Source: a virus. From it: a stretch of DNA of 44,441 nucleotides. Both the position numbers and the translations under genes were made by a program. The notes under the pieces were generated by a model. It did no database searches. It worked only from the letters and a program-made list of their open reading frames with translations, and was not told where the DNA came from. Positions 1,490 to 38,517 of this stretch are shown here, piece after piece (position 1 is the stretch's first letter; each line of letters opens with the position of its first letter). The stretch lies in IMG/VR virus record IMGVR_UViG_3300010430_000115, positions 1 through 44,441 of that record, one strand, 5' to 3'.

Positions 1490-1667
1490 GTTTGTAGAGA
1501 TCAAGATGGTGGTGAGCAATTGCTGTAGCTGTCCATTGTGCGTGGTCTCTAAATGGAGCTGTTGGTGTACTGTGTTGGCAAGGGATGTAGTTGAGAGTGG
1601 TATAGACAAAGATTGTCCATATGAGAGAACTGAAATGGCGAACTCAAGTTCGCAGAAGCGGGGATAA
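1482..1667 (+). CDS. Cys-rich small protein ending in a palindrome-encoded tail
   Basis: A 61-residue protein; I chose ATG 1482, with AGGAAAG just upstream, over an upstream TTG in the same frame. Cysteines cluster in two groups (CCSC followed by C, then CWC, with a late C), suggesting metal binding. The last codons (ANSSSQKRG) are largely written by the dispersed palindrome at 1638-1653. The same ANxSSQ tail occurs at the ends of three other unrelated genes here. Confidence 0.55.
   Translation: MTEFVEIKMVVSNCCSCPLCVVSKWSCWCTVLARDVVESGIDKDCPYERTEMANSSSQKRG
1638..1653. repeat. Dispersed palindrome copy 1
   Basis: Perfect GCGAACTCAAGTTCGC: 7-base arms around a CA centre. It lies in the last codons of the small Cys-rich gene, 11 bases before its stop. 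Confidence 0.9.
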
Positions 1668-1808
1668 ATGGCTGAGTGGTATGAGAAATGTTGCTGTGGA
1701 GGCAATGGCGTTTTGACAGAGTCTGAGGTTGTTATTGAGGCGGGAGAGTTGACATGTGTTTATGCTGAATTGAAGTGCAAGAATATTTCGTACGTATGCG
1801 ATAGGTGA
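1668..1808 (+). CDS. Zinc-ribbon-like small protein, interrupted by in-frame TGA
   Basis: A 46-codon frame starts immediately after the previous stop with a GGGG purine run upstream. It encodes a CCC triplet near the N-terminus, two single cysteines, then YVCDR followed by TGA. The same frame stays open after TGA as GDEWDTAEMLDANLDGI and onward to a TAA at 1893-1895. The context CDR-stop-GDEW looks like the second CxxCG knuckle of a zinc ribbon, with TGA where TGC or TGT would be expected. The gene could be broken, mis-sequenced or recoded. Confidence 0.5.
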   Translation: MAEWYEKCCCGGNGVLTESEVVIEAGELTCVYAELKCKNISYVCDR

Positions 1809-1895
1809 GGTGATGAGTGGGATACGGCTGAGATGTTGGATGCAAATCTGGACGGGATTCGTTTGGAGATATCTGGAATTAAGGTCGGTGAATAA
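1809..1895 (+). pseudogene. In-frame continuation of the zinc-ribbon gene after TGA
   Basis: These 28 sense codons continue the frame of the preceding gene and read like ordinary protein (an acidic WDTAEMLDANLD stretch, then a strand-like IRLEISGIKVGE). An independent start is possible only at ATG 1833, giving 20 residues without a ribosome site. I infer the segment is the C-terminal part of the same protein, reached by readthrough or recoding or stranded by a nonsense mutation. Confidence 0.4.
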
Positions 1896-1897
1896 AG

Positions 1898-2146
1898 ATG
1901 GATGCTATAAAGCCTAGACTGGTGACCCCATATGAAATGGCCAAGTTGAATGGTTACATGATGGATTATGCAGAGAAGCACGGGTATCATATCGGCAGTA
2001 TGAAGCTCATAATGGAAGATTGTGAAATGGAGCATACTCTGTACAAGGATGGTGCTAAGGCTGGAAGCTTTACTCATGGGTATCTTGGTGACCCAGTGGA
2101 TGATCTTGAGTGTTTCAAGGCAGCTTTTAACGAGGTGTTTGGATGA
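1898..2146 (+). CDS. Hypothetical protein (82 aa)
   Basis: An 82-residue protein with a helical N-terminal half and an acidic C-terminus. The ATG lies 3 nt after the preceding stop, and the gene ends in an ATGA overlap with the next. The ribosome site is weak, so translation is probably coupled. No recognised family. Confidence 0.55.
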   Translation: MDAIKPRLVTPYEMAKLNGYMMDYAEKHGYHIGSMKLIMEDCEMEHTLYKDGAKAGSFTHGYLGDPVDDLECFKAAFNEVFG

Positions 2147-2364
2147 AGGTTGAATTCGACAATGGACTTATTCTGGTTGGAGATGATCTGTATGAGATGA
2201 TTGAAGAGAGAGGGCGGTCTATTGTTCATAGGGAGCCTTTTGACTGTTCATCTTGTGGAGAGAGGACAATGGCAGGTAGGTGTAAGAATCAAGGTTGTGA
2301 TAGGTATGGAAGGATTGTTGAAGCGAACTTGAGTTCGCAAGTCAGTGATAAGGGGTCAGGTTAG
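2143..2364 (+). CDS. Small zinc-ribbon-like protein
   Basis: A 73-residue protein starting in an ATGA overlap. The middle holds CSSCGERT followed by CKNQGC, a four-cysteine set typical of a small zinc ribbon. Near the C-terminus the codons EANLSSQ are written by the dispersed palindrome at 2323-2338. Target unknown; the nearby run of small Cys-rich genes suggests a cluster of small accessory proteins. Confidence 0.55.
   Translation: MKVEFDNGLILVGDDLYEMIEERGRSIVHREPFDCSSCGERTMAGRCKNQGCDRYGRIVEANLSSQVSDKGSG
2323..2338. repeat. Dispersed palindrome copy 2
   Basis: Perfect GCGAACTTGAGTTCGC, the TG-centred orientation, in the last codons of the zinc-ribbon-like gene. Confidence 0.9.
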
Positions 2365-2398
2365 ATGGACAAGGATAGGCAAAAATATTGGGTATTTG

Positions 2399-2968
2399 AT
2401 GATGTTTGATATTGAGGTCACCAATGAGAACAGGGCTAGCATTGAAGAATCGCTATGTAGCTTGAAGAAGAATTATGATATGTTGTGTTCCATAGTTGAT
2501 TACTATCCGGTGATTGGTATTGTTGATGGAAGGAAATTTGTATACAAGAGTAGAGATGACATAGGGCTTATGATACATGAGATCGAAGATGCATTGGGAG
2601 TTGGATGTGAATATTGGGTTGTTTTGAGGGGTGGGGAGTTTGGTGAGGTAATTTGTGAGGATGGCCCTTATGATTGTTTTGCAACGGCTATGAATGTAGC
2701 CAATGTTGAGGCGGTGGTAGAGCAGCGAGATTGTGCTTCACCAACAGTGAAGAATGACGTTGGCTGTGTGTATGTAGTGTCTGCTCTTAGGTGGGGAGAT
2801 TCTGAGAACCATTCTTACGTTTTTTTTGTAGGGCAGGATAAGGCAATGGCAATTGAGAGGGCGGAAAAGGAGTGTACTGATAGGGCTGGGAAATACGATT
2901 GTATAGTGGAGAGGTTTATTCTTGGTGAGAGTTGTGTACGTGAAGAGGTGTATAGAGCTAAGAAGTGA
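2399..2968 (+). CDS. Hypothetical protein (about 190 aa)
   Basis: The frame is open from a GTG at 2345, but that start would overlap the previous gene and has no ribosome site. I favour ATG 2399 or 2402, where protein-like sequence begins (MMFDIEVTNENRASIEESL). The product has alternating strands and helices, including a YWVVLRGGEFGEVI segment and a YVVSALRWGD segment that look like two related beta-hairpin units. No named family. It lies immediately upstream of the terminase gene. Confidence 0.5.
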   Translation: MMFDIEVTNENRASIEESLCSLKKNYDMLCSIVDYYPVIGIVDGRKFVYKSRDDIGLMIHEIEDALGVGCEYWVVLRGGEFGEVICEDGPYDCFATAMNVANVEAVVEQRDCASPTVKNDVGCVYVVSALRWGDSENHSYVFFVGQDKAMAIERAEKECTDRAGKYDCIVERFILGESCVREEVYRAKK

Positions 2969-2982
2969 ATGGAGTGTGATGG

Positions 2983-5589
2983 TTGATAGTAACAGGTAAG
3001 AATGGACGTAGGGGTTCAGTACTAACTGTAGAAGAAGTACAGTCGAAGTTCGATAAGTCACTAGTAAATCTTACAGATGATGAGATGCAGTTGATGTCCG
3101 CTTTGAGCAAGGAGCTTGGAGAGGATGAGAGTGAAGTACATGATGCGTTGTATGATCACACCTATCGTACAAGGCCAGTGAATATGCAGGAGTTCATAGA
3201 GAATCCTTACTATCTTGGAGAGGGTTGTGCTTCGATATATCCTCAGCTTAAAAGTGACCTGATACGGTTGTTCGATTCTACATACAGGGAGTTCCTTACA
3301 ACAGGCTCGATTGGTGTTGGAAAGAGCTACGGGGCCTCTATTGTGATATGTAGGTTGCTATATGAGTATTCTTGTATGATATCGCCTCAGAGGTCTCTTG
3401 GACTTTCTCCTGCGTCTACGTTGGTTATACCTCTGATCTCGAAGAACTTGGCATTGTCTCGTGATGTTTTGAAGGCTGCGGTTGATGAGAAGATAAAGAT
3501 GAGTCCTTATTTCATGAGGAAGTGTTCTCCTGATATAAGGAAAGATTACACCTTGTTTCCGAATGGGGTTCGTGTTAATGTCGGATCATACATATCTGAT
3601 AGAGTATTGGGTACCGATGTAATTGCTTGCATTTTTGACGAGTGCCTTACTAAGAAAAGCGTTGTAACGTTTGATAATGATGGTGTATTATATCACTTAT
3701 CGGTTGCTGATCTGGTTGGAATGGTTGAGTCAGAGAGATGTAACCATAAAATAATGTGTCTTGATCATGGTAATGGCAAATTAAGAAGTGGAAGTTGGAG
3801 AATAAAAGAGTCAACTGTTCAGCCATTGGTGTCTATTGGGACGCAATCATCGGAGCTGACTCTTTCGCATGATCACCCTGTTCTAGTTAAACGAGGTGAG
3901 TGGTTTGTGTATTGTCATGCGAGGGATATCTGCTTAGGTGACACTGTTTTAGTTGAGGATGGATATGCCAAGAGAGTTTGTGGATCTTGTAATAGCTGGA
4001 AAGGTGCGTACCAGGCTAATGGCGACGAATTCAAGTTCGCAGGTGTCAGGAGAGAGCGACTAGGAACATTAAGTGTTCCTAGTGGGCTTCATGAAGAATG
4101 TGTTGATAGCGTTGAATTCCTTTCGCCAGAGCAGACATATTCTATATGCACAGAGTATGATACTTTTATAGCTGATGGCGTAGTTGTTCATAATACAAAT
4201 TTCCCACCTAAGCGACATGGGCAGCAAATAGCAACTGGATTTGGTCAGAGGATAAAGGCTGCTCATTACGATATAGTTGAGAAGATGTATAGGGGGATGG
4301 TTAGAAGGATCAAGTCTCGTTTTCAGAAGGCTGGTGGTGGGTTTCCAGGGATGGTTATCCTAGCGTCGTCTGCTGCGACTACAGAGTCATTTACAGAGCG
4401 AAAGATGAGGGAGAGCAGGGAGGATCCTGAGTTTTTCGTACTGGATCACACACAGTGGACTGTTAAGCCAGATGAGAAGTTTTGTGGTGATAAGTTCTAT
4501 GTGTTGTGTTCAACGTCGGCGACTAAGTCGAGGATCATATCTGATGATGAGTATTATACGATAACAGACGAATATCTGGATGCTAATGATGCATTCATAA
4601 TGGACATCCCTATTGAGTTCAAAGATGACTTTGAAGCCAACATGGAAGATTCTCTTAGAGATATTGCTGGTTTTTCGACAGAGGCAATCTCTCAGTTTAT
4701 ACAGCGTCCGAAGAAGATAGTTGATTGCACCAATGAGGATAGAGAGCACCCGTTTGATAGGGAGGAGTGGGTTTCTGGAGGGCCAGGGAAAATTGACTGG
4801 GAAAAACTGGTCAGGAAGTATGAGCGTAGGCTCCCTGGGGGGTACACTGAGGATGCCTACAAGCCGATTATAAACCCAAATGCTATGAGGTGGTGCCATA
4901 TAGATACGTCGGTTTCAGGGGATGCTACGGGGTTTTGCATAGGCCATATAGATAGGTGGATTGAGGTTGTAAGAACTGATATTGAGGGTGGAAAGTATGC
5001 CGATATGGAGCCATTTTATATAATGGATTTTATGTTGAGGATACTTCCTCCACCTGCTGAGCAGATCTATATGCCTGATATACGAGTGTTGATGTATAAA
5101 TTCATGGACATGGGGTTTCAGTTTTCCGGGATGTCAACTGATACATATCAATATGTTGAGATGCACCAACAGATAAAGAGGCGTGGAGTTAAGCCGTATA
5201 TCATATCAATGGATACGTCTGTTGATCCGTATGAGGAGTTGAAATCGGCATTTTACGAGAACAGAATAGAGATATATCATTATGATCCGTTCATTACAGA
5301 GTTTAAGCAATTGGAGTATGATCGGCTGGTGGGGAAGATTGACAAACCATTAGCTGGATCAGACGATGTATCTGACGGAGTTGCAGGCTGTGTCTGGGGG
5401 CTTAAGCAGTTCGGATCTAGGGTGCCAATGACTCGTGAGGCGAGTGTAAAAAGTGGCGTTTCACACGATCATTCTTGGGTTTCTCCACTGGTACCTGCGG
5501 ATAAAATTGACAATGATACCATAATTGCGGCAAAAGAGAGTGTGGGTCGTAATCGATATGTGCCAATTTTATTTGGTGATGAGGATTGA
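2983..5589 (+). CDS. Terminase large subunit, intein-containing
   Basis: DNA-packaging motor and headful nuclease. The 868-residue precursor has Walker A GSIGVGKS (about residues 108-115) and Walker B VIACIFDE (about 213-220). The C-terminal RNase H-like nuclease shows HIDTSVSGDATG (Asp about 641) and a DDVSD cluster (Asp 794, 795, 798). The frame is interrupted right after Walker B by a 184-residue intein; splicing would leave a 684-residue enzyme reading FDE-TNFPP. The start is TTG 2983 with GGAG about 8 nt upstream, since an in-frame TGA blocks anything earlier. The portal follows after 3 nt, as usual in myovirus head operons. Confidence 0.95.
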   Translation: MIVTGKNGRRGSVLTVEEVQSKFDKSLVNLTDDEMQLMSALSKELGEDESEVHDALYDHTYRTRPVNMQEFIENPYYLGEGCASIYPQLKSDLIRLFDSTYREFLTTGSIGVGKSYGASIVICRLLYEYSCMISPQRSLGLSPASTLVIPLISKNLALSRDVLKAAVDEKIKMSPYFMRKCSPDIRKDYTLFPNGVRVNVGSYISDRVLGTDVIACIFDECLTKKSVVTFDNDGVLYHLSVADLVGMVESERCNHKIMCLDHGNGKLRSGSWRIKESTVQPLVSIGTQSSELTLSHDHPVLVKRGEWFVYCHARDICLGDTVLVEDGYAKRVCGSCNSWKGAYQANGDEFKFAGVRRERLGTLSVPSGLHEECVDSVEFLSPEQTYSICTEYDTFIADGVVVHNTNFPPKRHGQQIATGFGQRIKAAHYDIVEKMYRGMVRRIKSRFQKAGGGFPGMVILASSAATTESFTERKMRESREDPEFFVLDHTQWTVKPDEKFCGDKFYVLCSTSATKSRIISDDEYYTITDEYLDANDAFIMDIPIEFKDDFEANMEDSLRDIAGFSTEAISQFIQRPKKIVDCTNEDREHPFDREEWVSGGPGKIDWEKLVRKYERRLPGGYTEDAYKPIINPNAMRWCHIDTSVSGDATGFCIGHIDRWIEVVRTDIEGGKYADMEPFYIMDFMLRILPPPAEQIYMPDIRVLMYKFMDMGFQFSGMSTDTYQYVEMHQQIKRRGVKPYIISMDTSVDPYEELKSAFYENRIEIYHYDPFITEFKQLEYDRLVGKIDKPLAGSDDVSDGVAGCVWGLKQFGSRVPMTREASVKSGVSHDHSWVSPLVPADKIDNDTIIAAKESVGRNRYVPILFGDED
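3643..4194 (+). other. Mini-intein inside the terminase Walker B motif
   Basis: Codes for terminase residues 221-404. It begins with Cys (CLTKKSVVTF, splicing block A), has a TLSHDHP block B with the TxxH arrangement, and ends VVVHN with the penultimate His and terminal Asn. The +1 residue is Thr. At 184 residues it has no room for a LAGLIDADG or HNH homing nuclease and I see no such motif, so it should be a self-splicing mini-intein unable to home by itself. It carries a degenerate copy of the dispersed palindrome. Confidence 0.93.
4025..4040. repeat. Dispersed palindrome copy 3 (degenerate)
   Basis: ACGAATTCAAGTTCGC: the right arm is intact, the left arm differs at two positions. It lies inside the intein coding sequence and encodes DEFKFA, a different reading frame from the gene-end copies. 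Confidence 0.7.
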
Positions 5590-5592
5590 CAA

Positions 5593-7272
5593 ATGGCATT
5601 TAGGGATAGAATAGTTAAGTTCTTTAAACGCGATAACAATGAACAAATCACCAATAAGGGTAAAGGTCATTCTCTGGATGATCCGTCTGGGAATCCTGTA
5701 GATGTTTCGGTGTCCAATGCTAGGGTAAATGGTGTAAGGGCTGCACTGACCTTAGATCAGGAACTCATGATGCGATATGCTGACTATGAGCATATGGACG
5801 ATTATCCTGAGCTTACTAGTTCTTTGGACATTATAAGTGATGACACAACAATAACTGACACGTTGAGAAATAGGACAATATGGGCTGAATCGAAGGATAA
5901 GATCCTTCGTGATATTCTTGATGATTGTCTTCATCGTAGGTTGAGGATTGAAGAAGACATTTGGTTGTATGTTAGAACTTTATGCAAATACGGGAATCTC
6001 TTCTCAGAATTGATTATTACAGAGGCTGGTGTTGTTGGGATGAATGCTTTGCCTGTTCCGACAATGAGGCGCTTGGTTGATGAGAAGGGGAATTTGATAG
6101 GGTTCATTCAGGATCTTAATGGTAGATTCAATATAGATAAAATCACCTATAACGATAAAACTAGGATGATTAAAGACCTGGAAGAGAAGGGGATGATTTT
6201 CTTTGAGCCATGGGAGATTGTTCACTGGCGTCTCAGGTCTAAATATGTTCGTTCGTTGTATGGTATATCTACTATGGATCCAGCAAGGTGGGTGTGGAAG
6301 CGCCTGGCGATGTTGGAGGATACGGCGCTTTTATACAAACTCACGAGGAGCCCGGGGCGGTACGCATTTTATGTTGACACTGGTGACCTGCCACCTTCTG
6401 AGGCAAGGGCTTTAATCAGGGATACTAGGAGATCTTACAAGAAGAAGACGTTCGTAAATGCCAGTGGAGAGCTTGAGTTTAGGAATAACAATCTGTCGCC
6501 AGAAGATGACATGTGGATACCGACGAGAGGTAAGGATACCACTCGTGTTGAGGTGTTGTCTGGCCCTGATTGGAATGTTATTGAGGATATTGAGTATTTC
6601 AGGGATAAGATGTTTACTGCTCTGAAAATCCCTCGAAGCTATTATGGTGGAGATGCTGAGGCTGACAACGGGCTTGCTCAGAAGGATGTGCGTTTTGCTA
6701 GGATGTGTTTGAGGGTTCAGCGTGAGTTTAGAAATGGCATTAGGCAGGTGTTGAGAACGCATCTGGCGGCTATCAATATCGATCCTGATACGGTTGAGTG
6801 GAATACCAGGATGACTGCACCTAGTAGCATATTTGAGTTACAACAGATTGAGGTTATGAATGCGCAGGCCGGTCTAATTGAGACGCTTGCTGAGTACTTC
6901 CCGAAAGAGTGGTTGTTGCAGCGAATATTCAACCTTAGTAAAGATGATGCAACGATGGTTGTCAGGAGTAAGACATCTGAAAATGAGTCGGATGCGTTTG
7001 AGGCAGCTCGTGTAGCGGCTGTTATACAGGATAAATATCCAGAGGTTGATCCTGGTCAACTTGGGATGGGTGGTGGTGACGAAGGTGCACCTGCGAATGA
7101 GAGTGTAAACGAGGCACTTGGAAATAATATTAAAGAATTGTTAAAAGAAACTAGGAAAACAAATTCCAGAATGCTAAAAAAAGTAGAAGGTGTTGGGCCA
7201 GCTGTAAAGAAAGTTGTCAAGAGGGAGCTGGCGAATAAAGATACTGGTGAGAAAAGAAGGAGGGAAGAGTGA
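5593..7272 (+). CDS. Portal protein, T4 gp20-like
   Basis: A 559-residue head-tail connector subunit, expected as a dodecamer at one capsid vertex where terminase and neck dock. Support comes from the N-terminal YADYEHMDDYPELTSSLDII segment, the central SPGRYAFYVDTGDLP segment followed by a basic stretch, and the SYYGGDAEADNG segment, all arranged as in the T4 gp20 family. The length fits. The C-terminal 70 residues are low-complexity and charged. It follows the terminase after 3 nt and its stop overlaps the GTG of the next gene. Confidence 0.93.
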   Translation: MAFRDRIVKFFKRDNNEQITNKGKGHSLDDPSGNPVDVSVSNARVNGVRAALTLDQELMMRYADYEHMDDYPELTSSLDIISDDTTITDTLRNRTIWAESKDKILRDILDDCLHRRLRIEEDIWLYVRTLCKYGNLFSELIITEAGVVGMNALPVPTMRRLVDEKGNLIGFIQDLNGRFNIDKITYNDKTRMIKDLEEKGMIFFEPWEIVHWRLRSKYVRSLYGISTMDPARWVWKRLAMLEDTALLYKLTRSPGRYAFYVDTGDLPPSEARALIRDTRRSYKKKTFVNASGELEFRNNNLSPEDDMWIPTRGKDTTRVEVLSGPDWNVIEDIEYFRDKMFTALKIPRSYYGGDAEADNGLAQKDVRFARMCLRVQREFRNGIRQVLRTHLAAINIDPDTVEWNTRMTAPSSIFELQQIEVMNAQAGLIETLAEYFPKEWLLQRIFNLSKDDATMVVRSKTSENESDAFEAARVAAVIQDKYPEVDPGQLGMGGGDEGAPANESVNEALGNNIKELLKETRKTNSRMLKKVEGVGPAVKKVVKRELANKDTGEKRRREE

Positions 7273-7505: not shown

Positions 7506-7521
7506 GGAGAGAGACAAGAGC

Positions 7522-8379
7522 ATGGGTTATATACTTGGAGCGTCAGTTGAGAAGGCATCTCGTGACAGCATGGAAGAGCTGGTTTCTAGTGTTGCTGATG
7601 CTGTGAGTGAAAAATACGGTGATACGATGGCTATAGTGGCTACGAAAGAAGACCACGTGATTGCTATTAACGAGGACGGCAAGGGGCGAAAGATTGGATT
7701 TGCTGTTTCTAGGAAATCGTCTAGTGATGTAGCATCCGTGTCTTTGACTGGTGACCGTGCTTACAATGGAATAGCGTCTATTGACGAGTCGGATGTTTCG
7801 TCGTTTGTGGCTGGTGCCCTTAAAGATGTAGCTGGCAAGATCGCAGGTGGTAAGTCTGTGTCGCGAACTCAAGTTCGCGAGATGATGAGTCTCCTAAATG
7901 GGGATGAGATTTACTGGGTGTCTGATATTGTTTCCCGTATAGACGAATCTTCTGATTCTGGGTGGATTGACACCTATAGCGCAAATGCTGATAGGATAAG
8001 GACGTCTCTTCATGGGAAGATTCGCGCTGTAGAGGGGCGTGTACCTAAGACAAGATTTTCAAAATTGCCAAAGTCTAGGCTATCGGAGTTCAAGCAGGAG
8101 CTTGGTGATTCTATGTCTATACTTGGTGGTGTGTATAGTGATGTCGCAGGCAAGTGCGACGGTATGAGTTTTAGTGAAGATGATTTTCATAGTGGCGTCT
8201 GCAATTCGTTGTTTGCTGAGGCGCAGGCCAATGGTGGCTTGCTAGGTAAGGCCGATAGGTTGATGAGGGATGACAATTTATCCCATGTAGCAGAGGCGCA
8301 CGATAAATTGGCCGACCGAGCAAGGACCATGGTTTTGATGTCCGAGTATTTGGCGTCAAAATCTAGCAACAAGGAGTAA
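7522..8379 (+). CDS. Hypothetical head-module protein
   Basis: A 285-residue protein rich in Ser, Asp and Lys with long predicted helices and no motif I recognise. It lies between the portal and the protease, where T4-type phages encode prohead core or accessory proteins, so a head-assembly role is likely by position only. The start has AGGGAGAG upstream. The codons SRTQVRE are written by a 20-base copy of the dispersed palindrome, in a different frame from the gene-end copies. Confidence 0.6.
   Translation: MGYILGASVEKASRDSMEELVSSVADAVSEKYGDTMAIVATKEDHVIAINEDGKGRKIGFAVSRKSSSDVASVSLTGDRAYNGIASIDESDVSSFVAGALKDVAGKIAGGKSVSRTQVREMMSLLNGDEIYWVSDIVSRIDESSDSGWIDTYSANADRIRTSLHGKIRAVEGRVPKTRFSKLPKSRLSEFKQELGDSMSILGGVYSDVAGKCDGMSFSEDDFHSGVCNSLFAEAQANGGLLGKADRLMRDDNLSHVAEAHDKLADRARTMVLMSEYLASKSSNKE
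7861..7880. repeat. Dispersed palindrome copy 4 (extended)
   Basis: TCGCGAACTCAAGTTCGCGA: here the palindrome extends to 9-base arms around CA. It is internal to the hypothetical head gene. Confidence 0.9.
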
Positions 8380-8383
8380 GAGA

Positions 8384-9606: not shown

Positions 9607-9610
9607 TAAA

Positions 9611-11263: not shown

Positions 11264-11285
11264 AGGCTTTGCCAAGGAGAGAAAA

Positions 11286-15001: not shown

Positions 15002-15017
15002 GCGAACTCAAGTTCGC
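15002..15017. repeat. Dispersed palindrome copy 5, intergenic
   Basis: Perfect GCGAACTCAAGTTCGC in the 31-base gap between two genes, immediately before the ribosome site of the next gene. This is the only copy entirely outside coding sequence. No T-run follows, so it is not a terminator. Confidence 0.9.
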
Positions 15018-15024
15018 GTGGAGA

Positions 15025-15888
15025 ATGAAAATGAATGATATTGCAAAATTTAGGGAAATCGCCATGGGTATTCTTGATGAGTCTGACAGGAAGAGCATCG
15101 GGATCGGGGAGATCAGTGGGGAGCTTGAGGAAAGCATGGGGATTAGTGAGACGATGATAACGTCTTACAATAATACTCGTCGTGGGAATCCTCTTGAGCC
15201 GATCCAGGGTAAGGATAGTGATGGAGAGCTGGTTTTTATCTTTGAGGATAAAGAGGATGCTTATGATATGTATGATTTCGTGATTGAGTCAGGGCTTGTC
15301 GTGGCTGGAGAGGTTGTCTATAGGGACATTGAGGAGCAGTACTCTGTTGCGTTTATGCCGAGCGTGGTAGTGAATAAGCCTGAAGTAATTCATGCAGCAT
15401 TGCTGGCTTACGAGGAGCAGCTGTATACAGAATCCGAGGAGGATGACGAGCAGTTTGAGTCGTTCATTTCTGGATTTACGGATCTGTTGCTGGAAGCGCC
15501 TACGAAGACGTCTGGTGCGCCTAAGAGAAAAGCGAAGATGGGCAACCCGTTTCACAATAAGCACACTGGGAAATTCTCCGGGGCTGGTGATCATGTAATT
15601 TCTGACGGTGGATCATGGGCAATAAAGAAAACCAAACTGAAGCTTACAGGTAAGGGCAAGACCAAGGAGGGTGGTTTATTGGCCAAGTATGGATCAACGA
15701 AGCATCCATGTGGCCGTGCAGCTCGTGCCCAGGGAAAGAATATTCGTTGCTGGGATGGGAAGACTGGTGCTGGAGCAAGGCTTGCAAAGATTATGAAGAA
15801 GAAGAAAGCCAAGAAGGAAAGTATTGACGCTGCGGACATGAGCCTTCTTATGGAGATGCGTGCAATGTATGGAGCTGAGGTGATGTAG
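15025..15888 (+). CDS. Hypothetical protein with basic Cys-containing module
   Basis: A 287-residue protein. ATG 15025 or the in-frame ATG 15031 could be used; GTGGAG spacing favours 15031. Residues 1-160 are acidic and mixed alpha/beta. Residues about 165-270 are strongly basic, with PCGRAARAQGKNIRCWDGK followed by KIMKKKKAKKE. That resembles the basic Cys-pair region of the frameshifted head gene at 8384 (CPSGQR...QC then Lys/Arg-rich), hinting at a shared capsid-internal module. Function unknown. Confidence 0.55.
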   Translation: MKMNDIAKFREIAMGILDESDRKSIGIGEISGELEESMGISETMITSYNNTRRGNPLEPIQGKDSDGELVFIFEDKEDAYDMYDFVIESGLVVAGEVVYRDIEEQYSVAFMPSVVVNKPEVIHAALLAYEEQLYTESEEDDEQFESFISGFTDLLLEAPTKTSGAPKRKAKMGNPFHNKHTGKFSGAGDHVISDGGSWAIKKTKLKLTGKGKTKEGGLLAKYGSTKHPCGRAARAQGKNIRCWDGKTGAGARLAKIMKKKKAKKESIDAADMSLLMEMRAMYGAEVM

Positions 15889-24579: not shown

Positions 24580-24921
24580 ATGGGAGATATTGTAGGGCAA
24601 GATGTCAGTGTGTTTTTGATGGTCGCTGTTGTTTTGGTTCTGGTGGCAACTGGGGTTGCCACATTGGCGATAACTGCAAAATTGTATCAAATGCATAACG
24701 TAAAAAACCAAGATGGTGAGTATGCATGGATGATTCCCAAAGACTTTCTGAAGATGCAAGCGCAGATCACTAAAAGCCAGGAAATGATTGGCGAGGAGAT
24801 TGCAGAATCGTCACGAAATCAAAAACAGGTCTCTAAACTATTGGAGACGTTAGTGAATGCTACACTATCGCTTCACCAGGCTGTAAAAACGGACGGGGTA
24901 AACGATGGTGGAGAAAAATAA
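24580..24921 (+). CDS. Membrane-anchored coiled-coil protein
   Basis: A 113-residue protein with TAGGAGG before ATG. Residues about 10-33 form one strong hydrophobic segment (VFLMVAVVLVLVATGVATLAI); the rest is a polar helix with heptads. One N-terminal anchor and a soluble coil could suit an inner-membrane spanin-like or holin-accessory protein, but no endolysin gene is in this window to support lysis. It overlaps the next gene by 17 nt. Confidence 0.6.
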   Translation: MGDIVGQDVSVFLMVAVVLVLVATGVATLAITAKLYQMHNVKNQDGEYAWMIPKDFLKMQAQITKSQEMIGEEIAESSRNQKQVSKLLETLVNATLSLHQAVKTDGVNDGGEK

Positions 24922-25480
24922 TGATTTTGATCTGTTCTATCTCAAGAGTCTTTGCGACAATTTGGTGGCAAGTAATACTAGTTTGGTGGCAGCCAATAAC
25001 AAGCAAACCGAACAGATAGGTAAGCTGACGGAGATTGCGGCTGGCACGAAGGCTATTCTTGAGGGACACAGTGAGAAGCACCGTGAGCATAGTGAGCGTG
25101 TCAGTGATCATGATATAAGAATCAGGGATGTCGAGAGAGTTCAGGATTCTTGCAGGGCAGGCACTGAGATATCCTTGATTAAGAAGCAGATGAATCGGCT
25201 GATAGCTTTCAAGGATATGATTCTAAGTAAAAACAATGAGGACAGCAGTGTTATCGATGTTCATGCTCAGAGGATGAAGGCTGCTGTGGAATCAGCCATG
25301 GGTAATCAGATACCATGGAAGATATTGTTATGGAAGATGCTGCCATGGCTTTTGTTGGTTTTTGCATTCGGAATAGCTTTGGCGACAATTATTGTTACAA
25401 AATCATTGTCTGGCGAGAAGGTTGTTATAGCCCCACCTGATATAGGCATCCCTGCGAACTTGAGTTCGCAGAAGAAGTAA
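24905..25480 (+). CDS. Coiled-coil protein with C-terminal membrane segment
   Basis: A 191-residue protein. Residues 15-120 are helical with heptads; residues about 146-168 (LPWLLLVFAFGIALATIIV) form a membrane segment near the C-terminus. Together with the preceding N-anchored protein it forms an overlapping pair of membrane coiled-coil proteins, possibly partners. The C-terminal codons PANLSSQKK are largely written by the dispersed palindrome. Confidence 0.6.
   Translation: MVEKNNDFDLFYLKSLCDNLVASNTSLVAANNKQTEQIGKLTEIAAGTKAILEGHSEKHREHSERVSDHDIRIRDVERVQDSCRAGTEISLIKKQMNRLIAFKDMILSKNNEDSSVIDVHAQRMKAAVESAMGNQIPWKILLWKMLPWLLLVFAFGIALATIIVTKSLSGEKVVIAPPDIGIPANLSSQKK
25452..25471. repeat. Dispersed palindrome copy 6 (extended)
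   Basis: CTGCGAACTTGAGTTCGCAG, 9-base arms around TG. It ends 6 bases before the stop codon of the membrane coiled-coil gene. Confidence 0.9.
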
Positions 25481-27711: not shown

Positions 27712-27737
27712 TCGGTTTTGGCAACATGGAGTAAGCA

Positions 27738-30533: not shown

Positions 30534-30545
30534 TGGGGATAGCCG

Positions 30546-31292: not shown

Positions 31293-31304
31293 GGAGATAG
31301 TTAA

Positions 31305-31835: not shown

Positions 31836-31854
31836 GATTTGAGGGGACGATGGA

Positions 31855-32421: not shown

Positions 32422-32431
32422 GGAGATATGA

Positions 32432-33049: not shown

Positions 33050-33333
33050 TGAAAGATCTTCTGAATCGTCTTGAAGAGAAGACAACTGGGAGATTTGTAG
33101 CTACAAAGATGCATCCAAGTAAGGGTGTAGAATATATTGTGGTAAGCAAGGATGATGCGACAAAGATAAAGAAGCACAAGGGCGGTATGCCTCATCCTGA
33201 TGGGTGGATGTCATTGTATTTTGTGTCTGAGCCATCAGGAAAGAGTGATAGCTTGGCCATAAAAGAGGTCAAGCGTGGGCTGGTAGATCCTGTTTGGGAC
33301 TGGGGAAGTGGCGTTATAAGGAAGGGTCATTAG
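33049..33333 (+). CDS. Small hypothetical protein sharing an N-terminal LEEK motif
   Basis: A 94-residue protein; ATG 33046 and 33049 are both possible in the TGA overlap. It begins KDLLNRLEEKTTGR, like the preceding gene, and has a PHPDGWMSLYF loop. Repeated N-terminal helices in neighbouring phage proteins may be encapsidation or docking tags; here that is speculative. Confidence 0.5.
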   Translation: MKDLLNRLEEKTTGRFVATKMHPSKGVEYIVVSKDDATKIKKHKGGMPHPDGWMSLYFVSEPSGKSDSLAIKEVKRGLVDPVWDWGSGVIRKGH

Positions 33334-33335
33334 AA

Positions 33336-33644
33336 ATGAGAATGTCAGAACTAATAGAAGAGATAGGCAGTATCCATGGTGATATTAAAAAGTTCAGGAA
33401 AGCTCTTGTAGGTGCTAGTCATGCTTTAATTGCTATTGAGGGAAAGATGCATCGTGCCTTGAGTTCATCTGGGACTGGTAGACCGATACGGGACAAGAAA
33501 GCCAAGGCTAATTTAAAGGGTGATTACGATTTTGTAAAAGAACTGGAGTCAAGTCTAGATGATCTTCAGAAAAAAGGAAGATTTATTGAAAAGAGGGTTG
33601 ATGTTGCTGATGCAAGAATAGCGTTGGCTAGTGGTGGCAAATAA
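33336..33644 (+). CDS. Small helical coiled-coil protein
   Basis: A 102-residue protein with GGAAGG upstream. Two long helices separated by a basic loop (GRPIRDKKAKANLKG), with coiled-coil character throughout. No family recognised. Confidence 0.55.
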   Translation: MRMSELIEEIGSIHGDIKKFRKALVGASHALIAIEGKMHRALSSSGTGRPIRDKKAKANLKGDYDFVKELESSLDDLQKKGRFIEKRVDVADARIALASGGK

Positions 33645-33645
33645 G

Positions 33646-33882
33646 ATGGTCAAGCTGAAATCTAGAAAGTTAATAGTAACTGTTGTTACTGCTATTGCGA
33701 TTGGGTTGAATGATAAGTTCGAAATCGGGCTTTCACAGGACACTATAACAATGATTGTTGGTCTTGTTGCTGCTTATGTGTTGGGTCAGGGAGTGGCTGA
33801 TGTATTGAAGAATAAAGAGTCAGGAAATATGGATCCAGTTCAGGAGGATCCAATTGAGGTAAAGAGAGACCTAGTGGAATAG
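33646..33882 (+). CDS. Holin-like small membrane protein
   Basis: A 78-residue protein from ATG 33646 (a GTG at 33631 is also open). It has a basic start (KLKSRK), a hydrophobic segment (LIVTVVTAIAIGLN), a short polar turn with a LSQDTITMIVGLVAAYVLGQGVAD segment, and a polar acidic tail. The pattern of two short membrane segments with GQG-type end occurs in phage holin-like proteins. No endolysin is adjacent, so lysis function is not established. Confidence 0.6.
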   Translation: MVKLKSRKLIVTVVTAIAIGLNDKFEIGLSQDTITMIVGLVAAYVLGQGVADVLKNKESGNMDPVQEDPIEVKRDLVE

Positions 33883-33884
33883 AT

Positions 33885-34328
33885 ATGGTTTCATCGCCAG
33901 AAATAAGTGTTCATTCTGTAGTGAAGAGCATTATAGGGAATGCTAGAAATATCAAGAATGCTAGTGTTTTGTCGCCTGGAAGTATACCTGGTGGCAAGGT
34001 GTACAGGCTAACAGCAGACATGACTGGTAAAGGCGGTGACATCGTTGGCTTGGTTAGGTGCTTTGTCTATGTGCCCTCAGATGAAAGCTTGGGAAGCCTT
34101 GTTAGGGTTGAATGGACAAGGCATGCGTTTGGGTTCTGGTATAGGGTGGACTTTTACGTGAACGATGGTGATTCAGAGCTTGATATTGCAGGGAGATTGA
34201 GAGAGATTGCTAGGTGGATTAAGGTGACGGCTACTGGAAGTGTGAATGTTGGATCGATGAATCGGATGTTTCGTAGGGTAAAAAAGAATCCAGTAATGGA
34301 TAGGGTCAACAGATTTTCGGCAATTTGA
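33885..34328 (+). CDS. Hypothetical protein (147 aa)
   Basis: A 147-residue beta-rich protein (VYRLTADMTG, GLVRCFVYVPS, FGFWYRVDFYVND) with a basic C-terminus. The ATG follows the preceding stop by 2 nt. No family recognised. Confidence 0.5.
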   Translation: MVSSPEISVHSVVKSIIGNARNIKNASVLSPGSIPGGKVYRLTADMTGKGGDIVGLVRCFVYVPSDESLGSLVRVEWTRHAFGFWYRVDFYVNDGDSELDIAGRLREIARWIKVTATGSVNVGSMNRMFRRVKKNPVMDRVNRFSAI

Positions 34329-34341
34329 ATGGAATAGCCAA

Positions 34342-34683
34342 ATGAAAAAGCTTTCTACAAGATTATCAGAGTTCATAGTAAGTGGTGAGCCTGCAAAATA
34401 TGAGGACGTGCTTGGATATGATGAGCGCAAGATCTTCCGGTCTTTAAAGAGCATGGGTGAGAGGTCTACCAAGGGCCGAGAGGTAGATGGGTGCATGTTT
34501 GAGGCTATAAACAGGGGTGGATCTACTATGCTGAACATGGTGCTAGAGGGTCGTCATTCGATGTCTGTATGCAATCAGGTGGCTAAGAGGTTTGAGTCAC
34601 TTGACGAACTTGAGTTCGCGAAGATTGTGAAGACGAAGAAGGGTGCCAAACTTGTTTTGAAGGTAAAAGAGGATCAGGGATGA
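34342..34683 (+). CDS. Hypothetical basic protein (113 aa)
   Basis: A 113-residue helical, basic protein. The codons DELEFAK are written by a near-perfect copy of the dispersed palindrome, in the third reading frame seen for this element. Its stop overlaps the next ATG. Confidence 0.5.
   Translation: MKKLSTRLSEFIVSGEPAKYEDVLGYDERKIFRSLKSMGERSTKGREVDGCMFEAINRGGSTMLNMVLEGRHSMSVCNQVAKRFESLDELEFAKIVKTKKGAKLVLKVKEDQG
34604..34619. repeat. Dispersed palindrome copy 7
   Basis: ACGAACTTGAGTTCGC: one mismatch at the outer left base; the 14-base core CGAACTTGAGTTCG is perfect. Internal to the basic hypothetical gene, 62 bases before its stop. Confidence 0.85.
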
Positions 34684-34973
34684 CAACAATATCTGGAAAC
34701 ATAGCTGGTACTATAAGGCCATTTGGTGTTCTGAAACGTGGGGAAGTTGTTGATGTTTCGGATATCTTCAAGAAGAAGAAAAAGAAGCGTAAGAAGAAGA
34801 AATCTTCTGTGTATGAGATGGTTTCGGTTGGGGGTGTAGCGATTCTTTGCGAGAAGAAAGAGAAGAAGTACACGGTAGATGGGAAACAGGGAGTTTGGCG
34901 AACTATAAGGGGTAGGCACTATTTTTTTCCGGATGATAAGTCTGGGCCTATACCACCGTTTAAAGGAGAGTAG
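34680..34973 (+). CDS. Lysine-rich small protein
   Basis: A 97-residue protein with an extraordinary run of Lys/Arg near residue 30-42 (KKKKKKRKKKK). It is flanked by a short beta N-terminus and a C-terminal domain with GVWRTIRGRHYFFPDDKSG, which resembles small domains found in phage internal proteins. Basic charge suggests nucleic-acid contact. It starts in an ATGA overlap. Confidence 0.5.
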   Translation: MTTISGNIAGTIRPFGVLKRGEVVDVSDIFKKKKKKRKKKKSSVYEMVSVGGVAILCEKKEKKYTVDGKQGVWRTIRGRHYFFPDDKSGPIPPFKGE

Positions 34974-34975
34974 AT

Positions 34976-35317
34976 ATGGGAACGTTATCTGGAGAACTTG
35001 GGAAGTTCATTTGTGAGGACATTCCTGAGGAAAAAGAGCTTGATGAGGCATATGTTAATCTTGAAAAGGAGATGGCTAAGGTTGCCAGGGCTACAAAGCT
35101 TAACCAGCATACTTTGGCTGTGAAGATTGCTGCCGATGTTCTTGGTGTAAAAAAGGTATCAAAGATTGCTGAGCACATCAAAGAGATCGAGAAGCTTGAG
35201 GGGCATTTGCCTGCTCCACTGGCAGAGTATCGTTCGTATTTGTCTGATGGTCTGAGGAAATACGCGAAGCAAGAGCTGTCCGGTGAGGCTCTTGAGATGT
35301 TCAAGTCTGGGTTTTGA
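34976..35317 (+). CDS. Helical hypothetical protein (113 aa)
   Basis: A 113-residue all-helical protein with GGAGAG upstream. No motif recognised. The last base of its stop is the A of the next ATG. Confidence 0.5.
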   Translation: MGTLSGELGKFICEDIPEEKELDEAYVNLEKEMAKVARATKLNQHTLAVKIAADVLGVKKVSKIAEHIKEIEKLEGHLPAPLAEYRSYLSDGLRKYAKQELSGEALEMFKSGF

Positions 35318-35496
35318 TGTGTGAGCATTATCCTAATCCGTTTCCTTGGATAGGTGGAGATGTGATATGCAATCGAGATGATTGTAAAGAGTGTGCAGAG
35401 AAGAGTGGTAAAGTTGTTGATCTGCAGGAGTACAAAGATAATGGTAGGCGGGATCTGCTTCTAAGAAAGCTGAGGAGAGACGGGTTTACTGATTAG
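35317..35496 (+). CDS. Small Cys-rich protein (59 aa)
   Basis: A 59-residue protein with MCEH, then CNRDDCKEC, a plausible single zinc site, and a basic helical tail. ATG 35317 is preferred over TTG 35314. Its 3' end overlaps the stop of the convergent response-regulator gene by 11 bases, with no terminator between them. Confidence 0.55.
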   Translation: MCEHYPNPFPWIGGDVICNRDDCKECAEKSGKVVDLQEYKDNGRRDLLLRKLRRDGFTD

Positions 35497-35839
35497 CCTT
35501 TGTATGGTAGGCGTCAATCAGTGCTTGGCATATGACATGGGTGTCTGATGGCTTGCTGAGAACTTTGAATTTTGAGTTTGATCGGATCTCTGAGTTTCCA
35601 GTATAGACAACAACTGGAAGTGATGATTCTAGGGTGATTCTGTTGCCTCCACCGTTTGGGCAATCCCAGTCGCTTAGTACGACGTCATAGTTGCCAGTGT
35701 TGATTTCGTCTATTCCTGATTGTGCATCAGGAACTATGGTTATAGATTTGAAGTGTTTTGTGAGTGTCCGCTTCTCCATTCTGGCTACAAATTCGTCATC
35801 TTCTACTATGAGAAGGTTTAGGTCGGCTGTCTTTTTCAT
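35486..35839 (-). CDS. Single-domain response regulator (REC)
   Basis: A 117-residue CheY-like receiver domain on the minus strand. Hallmarks are all present: acidic pair VEDDE (Asp 14/15), phospho-acceptor Asp 57 in LSDWDCPNGGG, Thr 80 in VVVYTG, and Lys 96-Pro in LSKPSD. There is no output domain. The Asp-to-Thr distance is 23 residues, shorter than the usual 30 or so, so helix 3 is reduced. I start at the second ATG (35839), which has GAGG 6 nt upstream; ATG 35851 is possible. In a phage it could tap a host phosphorelay, but its kinase is unknown. Confidence 0.88.
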   Translation of the reverse strand: MKKTADLNLLIVEDDEFVARMEKRTLTKHFKSITIVPDAQSGIDEINTGNYDVVLSDWDCPNGGGNRITLESSLPVVVYTGNSEIRSNSKFKVLSKPSDTHVICQALIDAYHTKANQ

Positions 35840-35852
35840 TAGTGGCCTCATT

Positions 35853-36677
35853 TCATCCGACGAAAATTGTGTGTTCGTTGACTTGGCCTTCGTCGGTGAT
35901 TTTTACTTTTTGATTATTGATCGGTGTGATTGAGATTTTTGAGAATTTGCACAGGCCGAAGCTCATGTGGCTATTATTAGAATGGAGTTCATTCCCGTCC
36001 CACGTCCATAGTCCGCCGTGGATGTCTTTCAGAAGACCGACATTCGGGGTTAGAGTTTCAAGTATTGCTTCGCGTCCAATATTAGAAAATTCATTTAGTC
36101 TGTCGAATGCGTAGCTACTCTTTGAGAATACTTGTTCAAGGAGATCCGGCATGCATTCGGATAGATGTTTTAGGAAAAGTGGAGGAACATCTTTCTGGTA
36201 TGATCTGATTTCTCCGCCAAGTAAAGCAGTTGGATGAAATGAGATTAGTTGAATAACGGTTTCAGTGTTGAAGGACTCAAGTGGGAGGAATTTTCCTTTC
36301 CATGGAAGAGACTTGCATCGTTCCATGTGTGCATATGGCAAAAAGACATGGTCTCCGACAATTCCGATAGACTTTGGGATATTTAGAAATCCAATTCCAT
36401 CATATTTGTTTTTTTGTTCGTTACACCATGCGGTATATTTTCTGGCTCTTCGGGTATACCCATTGGCTCTGCTGATACGTCCATATGGGCAATAACTGCC
36501 GAATAGGTCATGTCGACAGGCACATTCGTTACGATTGTATAGTTGGCAGTTATTGCTATTGTCGCATGTGATTATTTGAATTTTAGCAGGTTCGTTTGCC
36601 GGACTCTTGAATAGTGATTTTTCAGGTCGAAATAGGTTGAAATGCACTACTTTACTTTTTGGCATCTTCGATTCCAT
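35853..36677 (-). CDS. Cys-cluster protein of unknown function
   Basis: A 274-residue minus-strand protein with TAGGAGAAG before ATG. Residues 38-67 hold CDNSNNCQLYNRNECAC and then CPYGR: five cysteines (38, 44, 52, 54, 63), a likely metal site. After a basic stretch (ISRANGYTRRARKY) come VVGDHV-like and LPYAHMERC segments. The layout reminds me of a conserved hypothetical found in other large phages, but I cannot name a family. It is the middle gene of a three-gene cassette with the response regulator. Confidence 0.65.
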   Translation of the reverse strand: MESKMPKSKVVHFNLFRPEKSLFKSPANEPAKIQIITCDNSNNCQLYNRNECACRHDLFGSYCPYGRISRANGYTRRARKYTAWCNEQKNKYDGIGFLNIPKSIGIVGDHVFLPYAHMERCKSLPWKGKFLPLESFNTETVIQLISFHPTALLGGEIRSYQKDVPPLFLKHLSECMPDLLEQVFSKSSYAFDRLNEFSNIGREAILETLTPNVGLLKDIHGGLWTWDGNELHSNNSHMSFGLCKFSKISITPINNQKVKITDEGQVNEHTIFVG

Positions 36678-36825
36678 TTTCTACTTCTCCTATGAAGTTG
36701 CCGATGTCTTTGCCTACGGTATCGCCTGTTACGTAGCTTGTGATTGATGATACTAAGAGGACATTTAGGACGATGATTAGGATGAATACAGTGGCAATGG
36801 CTATAATGAGGATATTTGTTTTCAT
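36652..36825 (-). CDS. Small membrane peptide (57 aa)
   Basis: A 57-residue minus-strand protein starting at ATG 36825 with AAGGAAC upstream. Residues 3-30 are a single strong membrane segment (ILIIAIATVFILIIVLNVLLV), followed by an acidic soluble tail. It is first in the cassette and overlaps the next gene by 26 bases. Too short for easy detection, but position, start signal and composition support it. Confidence 0.72.
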   Translation of the reverse strand: MKTNILIIAIATVFILIIVLNVLLVSSITSYVTGDTVGKDIGNFIGEVENGIEDAKK

Positions 36826-36840
36826 GATGGTTCCTTTCTG

Positions 36841-36855
36841 TCGGCATCTTGCCGA
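36841..36855. promoter_or_regulatory. Palindrome in leader of minus-strand cassette
   Basis: TCGGCA-TCT-TGCCGA, 6-base arms, lying between the minus-strand promoter and the first cassette gene. It could be an operator for the divergently encoded ribbon-helix-helix protein or a leader hairpin. Confidence 0.5.
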
Positions 36856-36869
36856 TTGCTTATATGGAA

Positions 36870-36898
36870 AGCATATGTCGCAGGCATTAAATTGTCAA
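36870..36898 (-). promoter_or_regulatory. Sigma70-type promoter for the minus-strand cassette
   Basis: Read on the minus strand: TTGACA, 17-base spacer, TATGCT. The -35 is perfect, the spacing ideal, and the -10 matches 4 of 6. It would start transcription about 38 bases before ATG 36825. It is the best host-type promoter I found in the window. Confidence 0.75.
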
Positions 36899-37015
36899 CA
36901 GTGTGTGGTCGTTTTTTTGAGAAAGAATTACGTGAAAGGGCAAAATGTTAGTAGAATCGACATGCATAGTGATGGAATGTGTGATGAAAATGTGTTGATT
37001 TCTGATGGAGATGGC

Positions 37016-37198
37016 ATGGCTAGGCTGAATATAGAGATAAAAGAGGCGGTGCATAAGAGGTTTTTGAACCAGTGCGAGGATGACGGTAGGAGTGTTACTG
37101 ATGTGGTTAGGGAGCTGATACTGTCGTTTACAGAGAGGCGTGTTCGAGAGAAGCAGAGGCTGTTGGAGCAGCAAGGAGAAGACAATGAAAGAAGTTGA
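37016..37198 (+). CDS. Ribbon-helix-helix (Arc/CopG-like) regulator
   Basis: A 60-residue protein from ATG 37016, with GGAG 5 nt upstream; longer in-frame starts exist at 36962 and 36977. MARLNIEIKEAVHKRF forms the strand and helix 1, GRSVTDVVRELILSF the second helix, as in RHH dimers that bind short inverted repeats. It diverges from the minus-strand cassette across a 190-base gap holding a promoter and palindrome, so it may repress that cassette. It overlaps the next gene by 14 bases. Confidence 0.75.
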   Translation: MARLNIEIKEAVHKRFLNQCEDDGRSVTDVVRELILSFTERRVREKQRLLEQQGEDNERS

Positions 37199-38027
37199 GA
37201 ATAGTGAAGTTGATGGAAATGTGGAGGCTGAGGTAGAGCCGATTAAGCAGGATGCTACAAAGGGGCATGTTCTTGATATTGGGCCTGGCAGCATAGCTGT
37301 AGAGCTGCCATGTGGGTATATAGACGGAGAGGCAGTTCATGCATCTGCTGTAGTTAGGGAGATGAGAGGGCATGAGGAGGATATCCTGGCTGGATCGGGT
37401 CCTGTTTCTGCAAGAATGAACGCTATTATAGGAAATTGTCTTATTGGTGTTGGGAGTATTAGTGAGCCGTCTAAGTTGAGAGGCATTGTTGAGAGGTTGA
37501 TGGCGCCTGATAGGATGGCTTTGCTGATTGCTATTCGTAGAGCGTCTCTTGGTGACAAATTTGATGCGCATGTGGTGTGTCCCCTTTGCAAGGGCGAGCA
37601 GCATGTAACGCTGGATTTGAAAGAGGTCGAGACTGTTCCTATGCCTGATAGGATGACTAGGGAGAAGACATCTGCGTTGCCGAGTGGAATCGAGATCGTC
37701 TGGCATGTCCTCACCAATGACGATGAGGAGTGGTTAACCGAGAAGAGAAAGAAGAAGGTTGACTTGCTGACGCTTGGGCTGTTGGCTAGGATTGATATGG
37801 TCAATGGTGATGATATTGACAGGTCGCAGGGGTATAGAAGGGCTGTGTCTGCGGTGAAGGATCTGTCTATGCGTGATAGAACAGCACTTAGGGCTATTTT
37901 TGAAAAGGAAGAGGGAAAGGTGGACACCAATGTTACTTTTGAGTGCTCTAATCCTGATTGTGGTCATGAGTGGAGTGGGAAGATGGATATTGGGCAGAGA
38001 GGTTTTTTCTTCCCATCGGCTCCATAA
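37185..38027 (+). CDS. Tail assembly chaperone, zero-frame product (gp26-like)
   Basis: A 280-residue protein with AAGGAG before ATG 37185. The C-terminal half has a zinc ribbon: CPLCKGE and CSNPDCGHEW, ending GQRGFFFPSAP. This pattern, just upstream of a tape measure gene, matches the T4 gp26/baseplate-chaperone type found in large myoviruses. The codons GGT TTT TTC near the end form a phased T TTT TTC slippery site leading into the next frame, as in G/GT chaperone pairs of many phages. Confidence 0.75.
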   Translation: MKEVENSEVDGNVEAEVEPIKQDATKGHVLDIGPGSIAVELPCGYIDGEAVHASAVVREMRGHEEDILAGSGPVSARMNAIIGNCLIGVGSISEPSKLRGIVERLMAPDRMALLIAIRRASLGDKFDAHVVCPLCKGEQHVTLDLKEVETVPMPDRMTREKTSALPSGIEIVWHVLTNDDEEWLTEKRKKKVDLLTLGLLARIDMVNGDDIDRSQGYRRAVSAVKDLSMRDRTALRAIFEKEEGKVDTNVTFECSNPDCGHEWSGKMDIGQRGFFFPSAP

Positions 38028-38039
38028 AAAATTTGGAGC
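38003..38039 (+). promoter_or_regulatory. Second programmed -1 frameshift signal (tail chaperone)
   Basis: Slippery heptamer T TTT TTC at 38003-38009 in correct phase. After a 9-nt spacer, GCTCCA (38019-38024) pairs with TGGAGC (38034-38039), with the zero-frame TAA in the loop. The -1 frame continues for 65 codons to 38206. Confidence 0.7.
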
Positions 38040-38206
38040 AAGAGGTTTATATTTTGATGCAGCATATGGATCAAGGGTATAACTCTATTATGGATATGCC
38101 TTATTCCAGGCGTCAGAGGATTTTTGAGAAAAGGGTTACTGAGTTGCAACAGGCCAAGAATAAGAATAACAGCACAGCTGGGATGAGGACAAAGAGGGCT
38201 AGGTGA
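38009..38206 (+). CDS. gp51-like chaperone extension reached by -1 frameshift
   Basis: After slippage the frame reads LPIGSIKNLEQEVYILMQHMDQ and then MPYSRRQRIFEKRV, the pattern of small T4 gp51-type tail/hub assembly proteins, ending in a basic tail. Protein-like sequence begins before any good start: TTG 38033 has no ribosome site and ATG 38057 would cut the conserved-looking helix. The fused product would be 340 residues. A frame open to GTG 37970 inside the upstream gene is an artefact of overlap. Confidence 0.68.
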   Translation, partial: LPIGSIKNLEQEVYILMQHMDQGYNSIMDMPYSRRQRIFEKRVTELQQAKNKNNSTAGMRTKRAR

Positions 38207-38517
38207 TGGAGAGAAGGTTCGTGGATAATGGATGTGGGTTTCCAGTGATCCTTAATGACGTTAAGATGAAGTATGTACGTGGCGTCAATACTCCTGATAT
38301 AAATTACGACGATTTGCATCGCATTGTTTTTCTAGCTCTGGCTAACAAGCCGATGGGGCTAAATATGGAGCAGGTTAGGTTTCTTAGGCATTTCTCAATG
38401 ACGGATGATGACGTTAGTGAATGTTATGATGGGCTGTTGAGTTTTGAGTGGGAGAGTTCTGGGGACGATTTGAATCTGGTAATATCTGGCTGGCACGCGA
38501 ACTCAAGTTCGCAGTAG
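38206..38517 (+). CDS. Small protein before the tape measure
   Basis: A 103-residue protein; ATG 38206 shares its A with the preceding stop, and AGAGGG lies upstream. It is a compact alpha/beta sequence with a helix LNMEQVRFLRHFSM. It ends HANSSSQ, written by the dispersed palindrome just before the stop. Located between chaperone and tape measure; role unknown. Confidence 0.6.
   Translation: MERRFVDNGCGFPVILNDVKMKYVRGVNTPDINYDDLHRIVFLALANKPMGLNMEQVRFLRHFSMTDDDVSECYDGLLSFEWESSGDDLNLVISGWHANSSSQ
38497..38512. repeat. Dispersed palindrome copy 8
   Basis: Perfect GCGAACTCAAGTTCGC, 2 bases before the stop codon of the small pre-tape-measure gene and just before the ribosome site of the tape measure. 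Confidence 0.92.

Follow-up and report, generated by a model that had tools for sequence, protein, structure and literature searches.

Short palindromes that lie along a replicon, are read by one bacterial protein and are not tied to promoters are familiar from matS-MatP, Noc, SlmA and dispersed parS-like sites. Dispersed sites also occur in phages with plasmid prophages, as the C1 operators of phage P1 and the SopB centromere sites of N15. Cluster A mycobacteriophages such as L5 and Bxb1 carry stoperators, many short repressor sites distributed genome-wide, whose motif drifts coherently from genome to genome with relatedness (PMC6550527). In SPbeta, the dispersed phage-wide motif SPBRE is bound by MrpR, a protein of the tyrosine recombinase fold, with peaks in about ten promoter regions (PMC10516654). 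Here we describe palindromes found in a viral DNA stretch of 44,441 nt (IMG/VR record IMGVR_UViG_3300010430_000115, positions 1 to 44,441; hereafter the window), which very probably form an array of protein-binding DNA sites.

The original prediction placed eight copies of a 16-base palindrome in the window, and a re-scan found each of them at its coordinates: six are perfect (1638, 2323, 7863, 15002, 25454 and 38497), one has a single mismatch (34604) and one has two (4025). The copies exceed chance, as had been claimed, with 15 strand-matches at up to three mismatches compared with 0.16 expected, and none of 100 dinucleotide shuffles reaching 15. The 20-base extensions at 7863 and 25454 were likewise borne out (TCGCGAACTCAAGTTCGCGA and CTGCGAACTTGAGTTCGCAG). 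Four copies (1638, 2323, 25454 and 38497) do lie in gene ends encoding ANSSSQ or ANLSSQ, with 14-34 nt from site centre to gene end; the copy at 15002 is the one intergenic site, and those at 7863, 4025 and 34604 lie inside genes.

The window shows only part of a far larger, genome-wide set of sites. A scan of IMG/VR with the 16-mer returned several large contigs with many copies, and counting over whole records gave 20-30 copies per genome, against about 0.5 for scrambled palindromes, in G001 (176 kb), G005 (157 kb), G006 (125 kb), G009 (195 kb), G016 (75 kb) and others. Across these related uncultivated phages (75-195 kb; genes called with a simple purpose-made caller) the density is about one copy per 3-7 kb. 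The phages form one group, with structural genes in common at about 43-70% identity. In about 140 distinct sites, gathered with no more than one core mismatch, the core CGAACT-NN-AGTTCG is nearly invariant and the outer bases are purine/pyrimidine; the flanks are unconserved, save for a downstream ribosome site.

Sites are alike within each genome and different between genomes. Their centres are CA/TG in most genomes, CC/GG in G009 and CG in G035 and others. G028, to which G042 is a near-identical phage, carries GCGYAYGCGCRTRCGC at 28 places, and G051 carries GAGCTCnnnGAGCTC at 28 places (GAGCTC half-sites; an early guess of CGCACG as the G051 motif was replaced by this one).

The most conserved of the intragenic sites is that at 7863..7878, which lies inside the plus-strand gene 7522..8379, next after the portal gene and without a PHROG match, and is written in the codons CGA ACT CAA GTT CGC (RTQVR). 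A palindrome occupies this codon position in 20 full-length copies of the gene (the G032 copy could not be matched). Sixteen copies read CGA ACT CAA/CGA GTT CGC/T in proteins only 36-45% identical to that of the window, and in almost every relative of the window's motif class (class A) the palindrome's synonymous positions do not vary. In G029, G030 and G033 the codons are CGC ACG CGY GTG CGG, so that RTQVR becomes RTRVR, and in G028 they are CGC ATG CGC ATG CGC, giving RMRMR. The distant relative G050 has a TGCAATCGATTGCA-class site at a matching distance in the same gene, where the protein reads SCNRLQ, and more distant relatives keep a palindrome in their homologues with an altered protein and a sequence switched genome-wide to GCGCATGCGCATGCGC, CCGCACGCGTGCGG or CTGCAATCGATTGCAG. 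As the palindrome stays while the encoded residues change, it is the DNA site that is kept and not the protein.

Other positions behave similarly. The site at 15002..15017, about 13 nt upstream of gene 15031-15888, is matched in 12 class-A-type genomes by one directly preceding that gene. The site at 38497..38512 comes 14 nt before the tape-measure-like gene 38527-41532 and is kept in 7/7 genomes with this gene; G028 has its switched motif at both places. The site at 25454..25469 lies at the 3' end of the open reading frame (ORF) 24905-25480 and precedes gene 25483 by 13 nt; in several relatives a site is present before gene group 16 (window 26569) instead. Some sites therefore hold their position for very long times while the sequence of the array changes in step genome-wide. 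Absence of the sites from relatives, with codons free to differ, had been named as grounds for refuting the original prediction; the opposite was found, with both sites and codons kept.

Recognition appears to take place on DNA. The outer bases of class A sites are independent of each other (A..T observed 17, expected 18.0, Fisher p=0.85; G..T 34 vs A..C 33), and the outer pair likewise lacks covariation in the cultured phages DLP5, RcTiptonus and L338C; compensatory base-pair changes were looked for in class A and these three phages and were not found. In the coding orientation the class A centre is CA in 50 sites and TG in 55, so that TCAA and TTGA are about equally frequent. Such independent variation of the outer pairs indicates that the form recognized is DNA, not RNA. 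The part of the original prediction that saw an operator or segregation site, that is, a DNA-protein site, is supported.

A candidate for the binding protein emerged from comparing conserved genes of unknown function. Group 62 is a helix-turn-helix-like protein belonging to PHROG 17202, which has no assigned function; its members include DLP05_067 of DLP5, gp82 of RcTiptonus and gp66 of RcZahn. Its gene adjoins a RuvC-like gene and lies near RecA in a conserved helicase-RecA-resolvase module (in DLP5 it comes after the RuvC gene with one gene between); the window lacks it because the window is a fragment. Nine cultured lineages were picked solely by protein search with group 62, and a motif-free palindrome count was compared with Markov controls (4-8), four of the nine having earlier been probed with the DLP5 motif. 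The top dispersed palindrome exceeded the controls in all nine: DLP5 35, RcZahn 19, RcTiptonus 48, RHph_TM16 22, KarBoss 25, Vibrio phage 1 (VHS1) 14, SIO-2 24, L338C 54 and HJ05 24. TM16 and VHS1 are not outstanding in 50 kb pieces. Arrays are strong in the cultured phages MG189906, MW677527, KF614509, OQ594355 and HQ316604, each with almost all genes on one strand, and no clear array was seen in T4 (10 vs 6-9), N4 (7 vs 4), 9g, a Maribacter phage or an unrelated contig, where values were near their own controls.

Within a 200-nt limit, a site lies 64-180 nt upstream of the group-62 gene in six of the nine cultured phages (expected 1.2, P=0.00025). The other genes of the module fare differently, with an upstream site at the helicase and RecA genes in 1/9 each and at the resolvase and DnaB genes in 0/9 each. 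A MerR-like protein (group 55) was also considered; it has a clear MerR fold, yet it was not detected in the array phages RcZahn and RcTiptonus, and its gene has no upstream site in any of six cases, which counts against it as binder. The case for group 62 draws mostly on the site upstream of its gene and on the failure to detect the MerR-like protein in two array phages; on this comparative evidence we regard group 62 as the probable binder of the palindromes.

Several other ideas about the binder were set aside. A ribbon-helix-helix (RHH) protein (group 27) was rejected as its predicted DNA-contacting strand, MRLNVEI, is unchanged in G028 despite the motif switch, and the cultured array phages gave no match to its profile. 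A ParB-like fold for group 62, suspected by eye, was unsupported by Pfam or by a fold search of the PDB, and neither gave a ParB, RHH or TetR match. A rule linking group-62 residue 100 to the motif (Q/E with CG half-sites, H with TG) failed for H in DLP5 (K) and RcZahn (M), was also undercut by the GAGCTC half-sites of G051, and is not relied on.

One group-62 member gave a weak match to a Borrelia partition family (E=0.0065). Beside the candidate binder gene in G009, with a palindrome between, lies a gene (L126:2910-4268) in which ParB_N is fused to an N6/N4 DNA methyltransferase; G029 has a ParB_N-like gene without the long methyltransferase fusion.

The placement of the sites was used to consider what the array might do. 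Their spacing is more even than random in G009 (p=0.001) and in G001, G005, G006 and G028 (p=0.01-0.03), and this holds against a gene-start null. Among cultured phages, 0/2000 simulations matched the evenness of each of DLP5, RcTiptonus and HJ05 (coefficients of variation of spacing 0.46, 0.46 and 0.37), with p=0.02-0.03 for SIO-2 and L338C. Sites are often intragenic, 25/35 in DLP5 (the other 10/35 being intergenic) and 19/24 in SIO-2. Sigma70-type promoters with the consensus GTTGACAAAC were found in the larger intergenic gaps of G001, G005, G006 and G009 (L120-L156), mostly far from the palindromes, although four of the predicted starts have a palindrome about 57-60 nt upstream. The palindrome as a promoter part was rejected: its flanks hold no promoter signal, and the GTTGACAAAC promoters are separate and mostly distant.

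Even spacing, frequent intragenic sites, absence of orientation and absence of a promoter tie together lead us to favour, tentatively, a DNA-organising or partition-like role for the array. A dimeric phage-encoded protein, putatively group 62, would bind palindromes placed fairly regularly, about every 2-7 kb, over the entire phage genome. Through one of the sites, group 62 seems to control its own gene, and the array would organise, mark or hold the phage DNA, in the manner of partition or nucleoid systems, rather than control particular genes. In its fullest form, which is a possibility to be held a little more loosely again, this would be a phage genome-organising system in which the PHROG 17202 family binds an evenly spaced array, rewritten in concert as the protein evolves, with key positions kept even in coding regions, and would be common among phages infecting Vibrio, Aeromonas, Stenotrophomonas, Rhizobium, Rhodobacter and other hosts.

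A number of observations weigh against this account. In the large phages, a start codon follows within 0-30 nt of the end of about half of the sites (random 4%), a proximity that would also suit control of transcription or translation. Evenness of spacing was not significant in the window, in the shorter G004 and G016, or in KarBoss, TM16 and RcZahn, and the arrays of G041 and VHS1 are weak. The sites run along the whole genome and are not clustered like classical parS, and ParA (PF13614) was found in 0/10 array phages and in 14/14 controls. As the whole replication module is common to the array phages, co-occurrence alone cannot single out group 62. No Pfam domain is significant in this protein (a distant member matched DUF3102 at E=0.0007, below the cut-off), and its AlphaFold model is weak, with a predicted local distance difference test (pLDDT) score of 60 and confidence only at residues 40-166, an all-helical domain for which the PDB fold search matched no solved fold. 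Finally, the G028 half-site variants CAT, TAC, CAC and TAT are paired symmetrically in 19/28 sites against 9 expected (p=5e-5), an excess that is unexplained by simple independent recognition.

The alternative that survives best, and one we consider realistic if somewhat doubtful, is that the same phage protein acts in the manner of a stoperator repressor, blocking or ending transcription at dispersed sites along the single coding strand and so silencing a plasmid-like prophage or delaying sets of genes. In the density of the sites, their gene-boundary positions and the coherent drift of the motif per genome, the array is like the stoperators of cluster A mycobacteriophages (PMC6550527). DLP5, a temperate phage, has a prophage that replicates in phagemid form (PMC5834331), which would suit such silencing, as would the autoregulatory-looking site upstream of the group-62 gene and the presence of nearly all genes on one strand. 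On the other hand, the palindromes are orientation-free, unlike stoperators, and in DLP5 and SIO-2 most of them are intragenic. Evenness beyond the gene-start null in several genomes, the position of gene 62 among replication and recombination genes, and the lack of a tyrosine integrase in ten array phages also argue against silencing of this kind.

That same gene neighbourhood is what would speak for control sites of replication or recombination, for instance points of loading or resolution that work with the phage RecA and resolvase: gene 62 lies with helicase, RecA and resolvase genes in 9/9 cultured phages and near the RuvC gene in DLP5. We consider this unlikely, as nothing ties single sites to origins or junctions and the asymmetric CA/TG centre of a near-perfect palindrome would be needless for cruciforms.

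Binding by a host protein such as LexA or a nucleoid factor is less probable again. The resemblance to Gram-positive LexA boxes noted in the original prediction stands for the window class, which fits CGAAC-N4-GTTCG, and goes no further: relatives have CGYAY, CGCAC, TGCAA or GAGCTC as half-sites, in equivalent positions or at equivalent density, and at homologous sites the LexA core gives way to CGCAT, CGCAC or TGCAA, the match being confined to class A. Among the matches listed, the exact 16-mer occurs in bacterial genomes as chance-like single matches in unrelated taxa. Moreover, the motif classes follow phage relatedness, and a phage gene has its own upstream site. A search for the host with a major capsid alignment gave no match among 85,000 bacterial genomes. 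A cysteine-rich lipoprotein-like gene (G009 L123:1329-1655, with homologues) has, by eye, a Myxococcota-type look and may hint at a host.

RNA hairpins upstream of ribosome sites, acting in processing, stability or translation control, would suit the frequent placement of sites 9-20 nt before start codons and the symmetric excess in G028. The unpaired behaviour of the outer bases, the similar frequency of the two loops and a stem nearly invariant over about 140 sites make this reading, which includes the mRNA-processing hairpin originally suggested, very improbable. A spreading mobile mini-element, for which sequence coherence within a genome and the presence of a site in several intein-like terminase inserts could be cited, has next to no likelihood given in-frame homologous positions and codons kept over long times, no common flanks, no insertion boundaries and no insertion length.

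The terminase gene (window 2983-5589) has an intein-like insert at residues about 221-398 (3643..4176, plus strand) that alignment shows to be absent from the G009 homologue, and the two-mismatch site at 4025..4040 lies within it. All five terminase-gene sites (5/5) are in intein-like inserts, one in each, at several places among relatives, and the conserved part of the protein has 0. The insert has no Pfam match, and its intein splicing motifs were seen by eye only.

The remaining sites of the window are at 1638..1653 (perfect, TCAA centre), near the 3' end of a short plus-strand ORF and present also in the near-identical fragment G011; at 2323..2338 (perfect, TTGA centre), near the 3' end of ORF 2143-2364 and just before the next start; and at 34604..34619 (one mismatch), inside ORF 34342-34683. 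The window carries T4-like genes for head and tail, and almost all of its genes share one strand. Amid the tail genes, a response-regulator receiver domain gene at 35486-35851 (Pfam E=7e-8) and the adjoining uncharacterized gene 35853-36677 are both on the minus strand in this otherwise one-strand region.

Dispersed operator arrays and organising arrays are already known kinds of system. No earlier description of a regular whole-genome array of binding sites in phages, publicly available cultured ones included, seems to exist: searching the open PubMed Central (PMC) literature for five representative motif sequences produced no result, although a description elsewhere is possible, and the DLP3 paper mentions no palindrome. 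The array suggests a role for a conserved protein of unassigned function whose gene lies close to that of the phage RecA. It also presents a case in which 20-50 sites and a DNA-binding protein would need to change jointly. Silencing, packing or segregation of large unidirectional phage genomes also becomes testable in laboratory strains.

Compared with known systems, the sites described here share with cluster A stoperators their number, their dispersal and a coherent motif per genome. A stoperator is an asymmetric site of 13 bp, mostly oriented one way relative to transcription, whereas the sites here are 14-17 bp palindromes without orientation (the near-equal CA and TG centres) and are often evenly spaced. 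As with SPBRE and MrpR, a phage-wide dispersed motif is accompanied here by one candidate phage binder; unlike in that system, the majority of sites lie away from predicted sigma70 promoters, and ten array phages yielded no phage-integrase domain. The sites of phage P1 C1 and N15 SopB are fewer and are tied to promoters or partition. The palindromes are dispersed and not promoter-bound, as in systems of the matS or Noc type, from which they differ in that group 62 has no fold or family match and no ParA was found in the ten array phages.

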